Positions 8,265 to 9,814 of a stretch of DNA of 64,000 nucleotides are shown here, one piece after another; position 1 is the first letter of the stretch, and each line of letters starts with the position of its first letter. Below the pieces are notes generated by a model that saw nothing but the letters and a program-made list of their open reading frames with translations, was not told the DNA's origin and made no database searches. This DNA comes from Hyphomicrobiales bacterium (GTDB lineage Bacteria; Pseudomonadota; Alphaproteobacteria; Rhizobiales; Rhizobiaceae), in contig JAJFHU010000005.1 in the NCBI GenBank assembly GCA_021775455.1, forward strand, positions 1-64,000, in the 5' to 3' direction. The position numbers and the translations under genes were made by a program.

Positions 8265-8296
8265 TTGACCCCGTAGTATACTACGGAGCGTAGATT
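8265..8296 (+). promoter_or_regulatory. MerR-type promoter/operator of the mercury operon
   Basis: TTGACC (8265-8270) is a -35 element followed at once by the perfect 16-bp palindrome CCGTAGTATACTACGG (8271-8286). The -10 candidate is GTAGAT or TAGATT at 8290-8296. The 19-20 bp spacing is longer than the standard 17, which is the hallmark of promoters that MerR proteins activate by DNA distortion. It lies 33 bases upstream of merR, so the regulator appears to control its own operon from this site. Confidence 0.85.
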
Positions 8297-8319
8297 AATT
8301 GCATAACGGAGCAAATCGG

Positions 8320-8748
8320 ATGCGAATTGGTGAAGCTGCAAACCGTGCTGGTGTTGGTGTTGAAACAGTCCGGTTTTATGAACAAAAGGGGCTGATTGAT
8401 CAACCAGTCAAGCCTCAAAATGGTGGATATAGAGAATACACCCGGCAACAGGTTCGCCATATCAGGTTTATCAGACGCGCCCAGCGCCTTGGGTTTACTT
8501 TAAGTGAGATTGTCGAGTTGTTGACGCTTAAAACAGGTAAAAATGCTCAATGTGTCGATGTACAAAAACGGGCATCCACAAAACTCAAAGAGGTAAATTC
8601 CAGGCTTCAAAATTTGGAAAAAATCAAAACCACGCTGGAAACACTGATTGAATCTTGCCCAGGCAGGGGACCCGCGCATGATTGTTCTATCCTGGAAGCC
8701 ATCACCAATGGCGACTTGCAGCTGGATAATACATTCAAAGGAGACTGA
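8320..8748 (+). CDS. merR: MerR, Hg(II)-responsive transcriptional regulator
   Basis: A 142-residue regulator: N-terminal winged helix (RIGEAANRAGVGVETVRFYE), dimerisation helix, and C-terminal metal-binding loop. Cysteines at 78, 113 and 122 are spaced 35 and 9 apart, exactly the spacing of the Hg(II)-ligating Cys82/117/126 of Tn501 MerR. This argues for mercury over copper, zinc or redox sensing. The ATG at 8320 has GGAG upstream and gives the family N-terminus. It is the first gene of a four-gene unit and is probably autoregulated from the palindromic promoter just upstream. Confidence 0.9.
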   Translation: MRIGEAANRAGVGVETVRFYEQKGLIDQPVKPQNGGYREYTRQQVRHIRFIRRAQRLGFTLSEIVELLTLKTGKNAQCVDVQKRASTKLKEVNSRLQNLEKIKTTLETLIESCPGRGPAHDCSILEAITNGDLQLDNTFKGD

Positions 8749-8749
8749 C

Positions 8750-9022
8750 ATGGTAGCAAAGCAACGCAAGATCGAAATATTCAGTGCAGGCTGCGTGGTT
8801 TGTGAATCCGTGGTTGAGCAGATCAAGGCACAAGCTTGCCGCTCTTGCGACATACAAATACTCGATTTGAAAGTAAATGCTGTGGCACTACGGGCCAAAG
8901 AACTTGGTATCAATTCAGTTCCGGCGGTAGTCATCGACGGTAAAGTTGCAGACTGTTGCGCAAATCGCAGCGTCAGTCTTGATGTCCTGGCCGCTGCTGG
9001 TTTGGGACAGCCAATTACGTGA
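8750..9022 (+). CDS. Small thioredoxin-fold protein of the mer operon
   Basis: A 90-residue protein with a thioredoxin/glutaredoxin-type start: strand KIEIFSAG, then CVVC (Cys15, Cys18) and a cis-proline segment SVPAVVIDG around residue 58. Beyond the active-site pair it has a second CxxC (Cys30, Cys33) and a vicinal pair at 69-70, unusual for such a small redox protein and suited to binding a soft metal. It begins one base after merR and ends overlapping the next leader. It may reduce or relay thiol-bound mercury from MerF; that function is inferred. No signal peptide, so cytoplasmic. Confidence 0.75.
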   Translation: MVAKQRKIEIFSAGCVVCESVVEQIKAQACRSCDIQILDLKVNAVALRAKELGINSVPAVVIDGKVADCCANRSVSLDVLAAAGLGQPIT

Positions 9023-9033
9023 AGGAAACTACC

Positions 9034-9246
9034 ATGACAAACAACCGCCTTCTCGGCATCGGTTTGGGTGGCTTCGGCATTGCTGGAATATGCTGCTTTA
9101 CACCGTTGCTCGTAATCCTTGTTACGTCAGTCGGCCTGTCGGCGTTGGTCGGATGGTTTGACTACGTCCTGTTCCCCGCAATGGCTGTTTTTGCAACAAT
9201 CACCGGATATGCACTTTGGAACCGGTGGAAACAGCAACAAGCATGA
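9034..9246 (+). CDS. merF: MerF, mercuric ion uptake membrane protein
   Basis: A 70-residue inner-membrane protein with two hydrophobic helices. The first contains GIAGICCFTPLL with the vicinal pair Cys20-Cys21 that binds Hg(II) in MerF. A GAAGGA sequence seven bases upstream selects the ATG at 9034. The second vicinal pair near the C-terminus of plasmid MerF is absent: the protein ends NRWKQQQA. The Cys-rich protein encoded directly downstream, overlapping by four bases, might supply the missing cytoplasmic ligands. There is no merT, merP or merA in the window. Confidence 0.87.
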   Translation: MTNNRLLGIGLGGFGIAGICCFTPLLVILVTSVGLSALVGWFDYVLFPAMAVFATITGYALWNRWKQQQA

Positions 9247-9455
9247 TTAAACTACAGTCTACAATCACCTGTCCGCAATGCGGACATGCCGAAATAGAAA
9301 CCATGCCTACCGATGCCTGCCAATGGTTCTATGAATGCCAGGGCTGCAAAGCGCTATTAAGACCAAAAGCGGGCGATTGCTGCGTATATTGTTCTTACGG
9401 CACGGTGTCATGCCCGCCGATTCAGGCAGGCGATGATTGTTGTCATTTGGCATAA
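9243..9455 (+). CDS. GDCCVxC-domain small cysteine-rich protein
   Basis: A 70-residue soluble protein with eleven cysteines. The order is CPQC (10-13), Cys26, CQGC (32-35), GDCCVYC (44-50), Cys57 and a terminal pair at 66-67. The GDCCVxC block followed by SYGTVSCPP is the signature of a conserved small family, sometimes a selenoprotein, found near mercury transport genes; here all positions are ordinary Cys codons. Its start overlaps the merF stop (ATGA), so the two are translationally coupled. It probably binds or passes on Hg(II); the biochemical role is unproven. Confidence 0.78.
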   Translation: MIKLQSTITCPQCGHAEIETMPTDACQWFYECQGCKALLRPKAGDCCVYCSYGTVSCPPIQAGDDCCHLA

Positions 9456-9814
9456 GACATAGTCAGTTCTGTTGATTGAATCATTATCTAAACAATTCGC
9501 AAAAATTCTACTCGCGATTTCGCCTCGGGGAATTGCTGCAAACACCCTTTCCTCTTGCCTGATTATCGGGGGGCACCCGATGACGAGGGGAGAATGACGG
9601 CGGATTATAGAAGGCCGCCTTGCGTGGCAGGGCAAGCTGGCGATGCCAGTGCCAGCCCGCGAACGCGCGTTGGGTCGACAGGCCCAACAAGGCCAAACAA
9701 AGCGGAGGCTCCGGGGAAACGAGTGAACACTTCACCTTGCGTGGTTTTTGGTGATCTGATATCCCGACGCTTAATTCACCACAGTCAAGAAACATTATTT
9801 GGCGGAACCAGTTA
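9456..9814. other. Non-coding gap with a GC-rich, hairpin-dense element (about 9560-9745)
   Basis: The gap separates the mer operon from leuD. Its middle is markedly GC-richer than the flanks and contains consecutive hairpins: ATCGGG/CCCGAT (9565-9581), GGCGG/CCGCC (9599-9619), GCTGGC/GCCAGC (9636-9656) and TTGGG/CCCAA (9670-9687). Open frames exist on both strands, but none has a ribosome-binding site or a recognisable product, so I do not call a gene. It may be an interspersed palindromic repeat, a structured RNA or a leader of leuD. Confidence 0.5.

Follow-up and report, generated by a model that had tools for sequence, protein, structure and literature searches.

In this work we describe a four-gene operon that occupies positions 8265-9455 on the + strand of the window (the whole 64,000-nt stretch of DNA that was analysed), with merR followed by a gene for a six-cysteine thioredoxin-fold protein, merF and a gene of the GDCCVxC family, in a genome where no protein reaches the family cut-off of the mercuric reductase MerA. 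We propose, tentatively and at somewhat less than even chances, that the operon is a module without merA that is induced by Hg(II) and serves to take up and buffer the ion.

Genes and promoter of the operon

The sequence-only reading had described a tightly coupled four-gene unit under a MerR-type promoter, and this description holds. The genes lie as listed in Table 1, neighbouring genes overlap or are 1-11 nt apart, with the ATG of the GDCCVxC gene overlapping the merF stop codon, and all four frames as well as the operator are intact. No further reading frames (merT, merP) were found between the four genes. The operon neighbours include a marR-like gene and genes that we take to be sdhA/sdhB-, GST- and leuD/leuB-like. 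The 359 nt from the operon to leuD (9456-9814) carry no assigned gene and have a GC content of 52.4%, versus 48.1% in the operon.

Table 1. Features of the operon, with positions in the window
Feature	Position	Strand	Basis
MerR-type promoter/operator	8265..8296	+	sequence; like arrangement 5' of MerR in relatives
merR-like regulator, 142 aa, Cys78/113/122	8320..8748	+	Pfam, NCBIfam, structure matches by sequence
Thioredoxin-fold protein, 90 aa, Cys 15, 18, 30, 33, 69, 70	8750..9022	+	PF13192, AlphaFold model
merF, 70 aa, Cys 20, 21	9034..9246	+	NF033565, matches to MerF structures by sequence
GDCCVxC protein, 70 aa, 11 Cys	9243..9455	+	NF041374, Cys alignment

The promoter is composed of TTGACC (8265-8270), the perfect 16-nt palindrome CCGTAGTATACTACGG (8271-8286) and the putative -10 box TAGATT (8291-8296), and thus has the dyad between -35 and -10 that characterises the canonical mer operon. 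The spacer would be 20 nt long, judging from the homologous site upstream of MerR in locus L115, where a spacer of 20 yields TATAAT and the same promoter arrangement occurs with one mismatched palindrome pair. Note that the perfect palindrome alone is weak evidence, because the window contains four perfect 16-nt palindromes where about one is expected. A perfect palindrome behind a TTGAC box was present 5' of MerR in three of the 14 upstream stretches listed (L070, L071, L107), in a survey where the start chosen for at least one locus (L110) removed its operator stretch. When one mismatch was allowed, the operator was found at four places in the genome, namely the window, two sites that were rejected as regulon targets because they are inside reading frames, and one site on contig C13. 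The near-identical operator on C13 was likewise rejected as a second regulon target, since it belongs to a merR relic, i.e., a decayed 5' part of merR plus operator (L162 3893-4082, - strand) that shares 88% identity with the window across 197 columns; the genes adjoining this relic are presumably copper-type. Searching the whole genome with the longer promoter pattern and up to two mismatches gave no site besides the window, and no other intact gene with the same operator was found in the genome operator searches.

The regulator matches MerR_1 (E 1.7e-18) and the MerR-DNA-bind domain in Pfam, and the spacings of 35 and 9 between its three cysteines are those that had been read from the sequence. 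Its start is most likely the ATG at 8320, with GGAG at 8308-8311; the alternative start, TTG at 8299, sits directly after the inferred -10 box. The best NCBIfam model is TIGR02051, that of the Hg(II) MerR, with 128.8 bits, below its cut-off of 150.85, and the next ones are PRK09514 (Zn, 118.4), CueR (118.1), ZntR (112.5) and CadR-PbrR (98.0). The solved structures closest by sequence are 4ua1 and then 5crl, which is named mercuric regulator. The ten related MerRs that were scanned all fall below the equivalog cut-off, including one that stands beside merA, with nine scoring best with the MerR model and one with CueR. It is noted that the 35/9 spacing is no proof of Hg(II), because PbrR-type Pb sensors share it.

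The second gene was expected to encode a thioredoxin-fold protein with extra cysteines, which agrees with its match to PF13192 (Thioredoxin_3, E 9.1e-7) and with its six cysteines, all invariant in 50 aligned sequences (the window protein and 49 of the 80 kept loci described below). Its AlphaFold model (pLDDT 83.6) has no match in the PDB at E 0.001 or better, the best being 1.3e-3, and the 50 PDB matches listed for it are mostly thioredoxins and glutaredoxins.

The identities given beforehand to the last two genes are also upheld, both proteins being over the cut-offs of their families. MerF, which provides the Mer-family membrane transporter known from the canonical mer operon, scores 78.7 bits with NF033565 (cut-off 50) and also matches Pfam Transport_MerF. 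It has one cysteine pair and no second pair in its tail. We considered a tail without the second CC as a mark of merA-less operons and rejected it, since it separates little: the second pair is absent in all 23 GDCCVxC-linked MerFs, one of which has just 17 residues after the first pair, and also in six of eight MerA-linked plasmid MerFs chosen for comparison. On contig C49 (L202 4800-5072) there is a lone shortened merF-like frame of 49.0 bits, below the cut-off, which is probably a relic.

The GDCCVxC protein scores 108.1 bits with NF041374, over the curated cut-off of 40, and nine of its cysteines are invariant in eight aligned sequences; summed with those of the thioredoxin-fold protein, the cysteines number 17. 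Its model (pLDDT 80.1) has no PDB match at E 0.001 or better, while by sequence its first half has a weak likeness to a zinc ribbon (E 0.0057). In three GDCCVxC genes of the class (L204, L205, L206), one conserved cysteine is replaced by an in-frame TGA, the only one in the gene, the column being that of Cys26 of the window protein in two and of Cys47 in one. Judging solely from the position of the TGA, it is likely that selenocysteine is encoded there, and if so, these cysteine positions would be marked as reactive. PMC13188914 lists this family under the name hypothetical selenoprotein GOS_B; the term GDCCVxC was not found in the literature searched.

MerA and the recurrence of the two cysteine-rich proteins

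The source genome has 3,512,965 bases in 62 contigs and is 99.99% complete. Searching all of it with the MerA model gave eight matches, of which none is over the cut-off of 454.45 bits (best 354), so that merA, noted earlier as absent from the window, is at the family cut-off absent from the whole genome too. The presence of merA elsewhere was rejected after inspection of the five full-length and three partial flavoprotein matches, and a CC pair at the end is found in none of the five full-length ones. Judging by their motifs, we take these matches to be of lipoamide-dehydrogenase, glutathione-reductase, transhydrogenase, ferredoxin-reductase, thioredoxin-reductase and glutamate-synthase types. 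Neither the operator searches nor the MerA-model search revealed a merA elsewhere in the genome that is under the same regulator, a finding that had been named beforehand as one that would refute the idea. The best match, on contig C38, has the redox motif GGDCLNTGCVPSK and is preceded by a gene that encodes a separate membrane protein, and of the 31 GDCCVxC-matching genomes described next, 22 have matches that score 360-393 bits. The MerB search of the genome gave no match, with the control equally silent.

Among 151 relatives, the GDCCVxC model matches in 31, in 29 over and in two below the cut-off. MerA is present in four of the 31, and by hand count a MerF match is present in 16 of the 31 versus 14 of the 120 others. 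In a sample of the class, GDCCVxC is present in 59 and MerA in 34 of 385 genomes. In 49 of the 59 no MerA was found, by a search at E 1e-130 with four candidates scored per genome, which split MerA genes (as in G101) can escape. MerA is somewhat commoner with GDCCVxC (10/59, the overlap being a hand count) than without it (24/326), with a Fisher odds ratio of 2.57 and p 0.024. The surroundings of 57 GDCCVxC genes, a set from which the operon's own locus and L038 (a weak match) are excluded, were searched to a distance of 1.5 kb, and a Mer-type membrane gene is found for 32, a MerR gene for 16, either for 34 and a MerA-like gene for one (L185, whose genome has no MerA over the cut-off). The thioredoxin-fold gene is found for none of the 57, so the two cysteine-rich proteins are not an obligate pair and occur together only sometimes. 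GDCCVxC genes occur in 348 plasmid records. They can also sit among copper-type genes, as at L069.

The thioredoxin-fold gene is rare in the class, being present in six of 385 genomes with the source genome included. In named genomes 395 relatives were found, and the best 80 were kept, in a range comprising Hyphomicrobiales, Nitrospirota, Deltaproteobacteria, Acidobacteria and Planctomycetota. Of the loci of these best 80 of 395, 70 have a MerR at a distance of at most 2.5 kb, 44 have a MerF-, MerT- or MerC-type gene and 19 have MerP. MerA is present in eight of these loci, so that the MerR-thioredoxin pair stands beside true merA in some; seven of the eight MerA frames end in a CC pair and the eighth is cut by the locus end. 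GDCCVxC is present in nine; each of these nine loci also has MerR and a transporter, and MerA is in none of them. The genomes of four of these nine have MerA elsewhere (L071, L072, L107, L110), and in those of the other five (L070, L079, L080, L081, L129; completeness not given) the genome search found none at the cut-off. Note that the counts around the 80 and the 57 genes come from single-sequence queries, with some loci cut by contig ends. When 20 genomes with the thioredoxin-fold gene were picked by hand, MerA was over the cut-off in nine, two of which carry it in the retrieved locus itself (L083, L093), and none was over it in 11.

The order merR, thioredoxin-fold gene, merF and GDCCVxC gene recurs in L070 (Hyphomicrobiales NORP267) and in L107 and L110 (Kiloniellaceae), with one cysteine of the GDCC motif replaced in the GDCCVxC protein of L107. 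The survey of relatives for this order without merA, which had been suggested together with the first reading, thus gives both cases, L070, where no MerA was found, and L107 and L110, where merA is elsewhere in the genome. Between the window thioredoxin-fold protein and that of L070, dN/dS is about 0.1, but dS (2.3) is near saturation; saturation affects dN/dS in five of the six pairs compared. Elsewhere, MerR and the thioredoxin-fold gene flank a membrane gene that is MerC-like (Pfam MerC over the cut-off in seven of eight scanned), and in L104, L115, L124, L133 and L149 the MerC-like protein has a DF-family-like N-terminal part, below the cut-off of that family. Among the nearest same-strand MerRs linked to the thioredoxin-fold gene in the best 80 of 395 loci, the 35/9 spacing is present in 54 of 67 and absent in 13. 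The first metal-binding cysteine is missing in such MerRs of L090, L117 and L148, and in L117 the order is MerR, thioredoxin-fold gene and then a copper-type P-type ATPase.

In a same-genus genome (G008), a GDCCVxC frame is disrupted (L036 1500-1750, - strand), and in the 1.5 kb before leuD the operon is absent from all 11 other same-genus genomes. Together with the merR and merF relics in the source genome, which suggest easy loss, this indicates that such modules come and go.

A model of uptake and buffering, and its alternatives

In our model, MerR on the palindrome would bind a soft ion, most likely Hg(II), and switch on its own gene and the three genes behind it. MerF would then carry the ion across the inner membrane via its one cysteine pair. 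In the cytoplasm the ion would be passed to the thiols of the GDCCVxC and six-cysteine thioredoxin-like proteins, which would hold it and shield other thiols, with a CxxC site keeping the two cysteine-rich proteins reduced. The ion would end up bound to protein or small thiols, not reduced to Hg(0) by MerA, and in genomes with merA elsewhere the same module could act as a feeder. The metal, the transport direction, the hand-off, the fate of the ion and any benefit are what we infer, sensing and transport from the protein families, and hand-off and buffering from the cysteine content, the linkage and the TGA variants. It had been suggested that the two proteins sequester or export the metal by an undescribed route; sequestration is plausible, and we found no support for export by the cysteine-rich proteins.

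The model is favoured by the intact unit with a mer-type promoter in a nearly complete genome with no MerA over the cut-off, by the linkage of the thioredoxin-fold gene to MerR and transporters, with the 35/9 spacing prevalent in the linked MerRs, by the closeness of GDCCVxC to Mer-type membrane genes and the large share of its class genomes where no MerA was found, and, if the TGA is read as selenocysteine, by the three GDCCVxC variants. Moreover, it was reported that MerF alone can move Hg(II) and that its first CC pair, which the window MerF retains, is the important one (PMC5500634), and the merA-less cluster merP1T1R5 is Hg-induced (PMC10433974). By contrast, the model is disfavoured by the score of MerR below the equivalog cut-off, by the Tn5563a result described below (PMC4447125), by MerA being, if anything, commoner with GDCCVxC, by the lack of an obligate pairing of the two cysteine-rich proteins, and by the relics.

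The score of MerR bears also on a different proposal, that the cargo is another soft ion (Pb(II), Cu(I), Au, or selenium or tellurium species) and that the mer look of MerF and MerR is misleading. We consider this unlikely, though by no means far-fetched. With another ion it would be natural that the CueR and ZntR models follow closely behind the best one, that 13 of the 67 linked MerRs lack the first cysteine or have other spacings, that a copper-type P-type ATPase follows MerR and the thioredoxin-fold gene in L117, and that GDCCVxC lies among copper-type genes in L069. However, MerF is over its own cut-off, the Hg(II) MerR model is the best one for the window protein and for nine of the ten related MerRs scanned, and the same MerR-thioredoxin pair is found beside true merA.

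The intactness of the four frames and the operator, the recurrence of the gene order in three other genomes, the six invariant cysteines in 50 sequences and the dN/dS of about 0.1, its dS near saturation, argue against the operon being a defective one that has lost merA, where uptake without reduction would sensitise the cell and the operon would be on its way out. This proposal, which we regard as improbable but worth weighing, is consistent with the tolerance result on Tn5563a (PMC4447125) and with the label of a defective mer locus given to this element (PMC4785139), as well as with the merR and merF relics, the disrupted GDCCVxC frame in the same genus and the fact that none of the 11 other genomes of the genus has the operon in the 1.5 kb before leuD.

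Finally, reduction of Hg(II) could be the work of an atypical enzyme of the host, for instance the MerA-like C38 flavoprotein, to which the two cysteine-rich proteins would deliver the ion. This is quite improbable, because the C38 enzyme, despite its 354 bits and redox motif and the precedent of an unlinked MerA under MerR control in Synechocystis (PMC6741143), is 100 bits below the cut-off, has no terminal CC pair and no matching operator, and looks like a core enzyme given the 360-393-bit matches in 22 of 31 genomes.

Returning to uptake and buffering, a wider version of the model, which we regard as doubtful, would be that reductase-independent handling of Hg(II) is widespread, with MerR inducing a MerF, MerT or MerC importer together with small cysteine- or selenocysteine-containing proteins (the six-cysteine thioredoxin-fold protein and/or GDCCVxC) that either fix the ion, as a stable thiolate or selenolate, or deliver it to a sink. 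In that case, the "defective" merA-less mer loci in print would be working systems whose partner gene was unlisted. Cells that take up Hg(II) and have no MerA are generally expected to be harmed by it; nevertheless, no MerA was found over the cut-off in 49 of the 59 class genomes with GDCCVxC and in 11 of the 20 hand-picked genomes with the thioredoxin-fold gene. Either such cells bind Hg(II) with these proteins or the ion handled by the genes is a different one, which matters for the genomes that are called Hg-reducing or Hg-sensitive by merA alone.

Comparison with known systems

With the canonical mer operon the window operon shares a MerR-like regulator, MerF and the mer-type promoter, and it differs in being without merA, merT and merP and in the addition of the six-cysteine thioredoxin-fold and GDCCVxC genes. 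The MerR-MerC-thioredoxin clusters of other phyla (such as L104, L115, L124) resemble it in the co-directional MerR and six-cysteine thioredoxin-fold genes and in having a Mer-family membrane protein. By contrast, this protein is MerC-like there, with the DF-family-like N-terminal part in five of eight scanned, and GDCCVxC was not detected in these loci. In the literature searched, we did not find a description of the six-cysteine thioredoxin-fold protein as a recurrent partner of MerR and Mer transporters over many phyla, nor of GDCCVxC as a partner mostly without MerA.

For the merA-less state itself, the earlier word "undescribed" is too strong. Tn5563a, with merR, merT and merP and without merA, made two strains more tolerant to Hg, whereas in six strains the tolerance dropped at least two-fold, for which its authors proposed uptake without reduction, plus a chromosomal merA in the two tolerant strains (PMC4447125). 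In Pseudomonas pseudoalcaligenes, merP1T1R5 has no merA in the cluster and is highly Hg-induced, merA being elsewhere in the strain (PMC10433974). The MerA that serves in Synechocystis is unlinked and controlled by MerR (PMC6741143), and it is also common for MerB to occur where MerA is absent, other fates having been proposed for the Hg(II) (PMC8261052).

A Tn5563-type locus has, as the window operon does, merR and a Mer-family transporter without merA, but the transporter genes are MerT and MerP, where the window operon has MerF only. In the Tn5563-type locus of pA1706-KPC, which is transposon-borne, merR is divergent from the rest and no thioredoxin-fold gene is annotated, while a GDCCVxC gene lies between merP and the Tn3-family transposase gene (L064 4992-5204), as a point of likeness to the window operon. 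Its gene order matches that of Tn5563 as printed, where, in the accessible part of the source, the locus is named a defective mer locus and the GDCCVxC frame is unlisted (PMC4785139). The nearest experiment, that on Tn5563a, opposes a simple benefit, yet no thioredoxin-fold gene is annotated in the Tn5563-like stretch and GDCCVxC appears to be unnamed by the authors, as far as the accessible text goes. The cluster of Burkholderia contaminans pB1701 (trx-merR-merT-merP-GDCCVxC) differs from the window operon in gene order and in having MerT and MerP where the window has MerF, and is like it in combining the thioredoxin-fold protein, MerR, a Mer transporter and GDCCVxC in a stretch with no merA annotated. 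The merA-less mer loci are already in print, and the paradox of the window is real but not unique.
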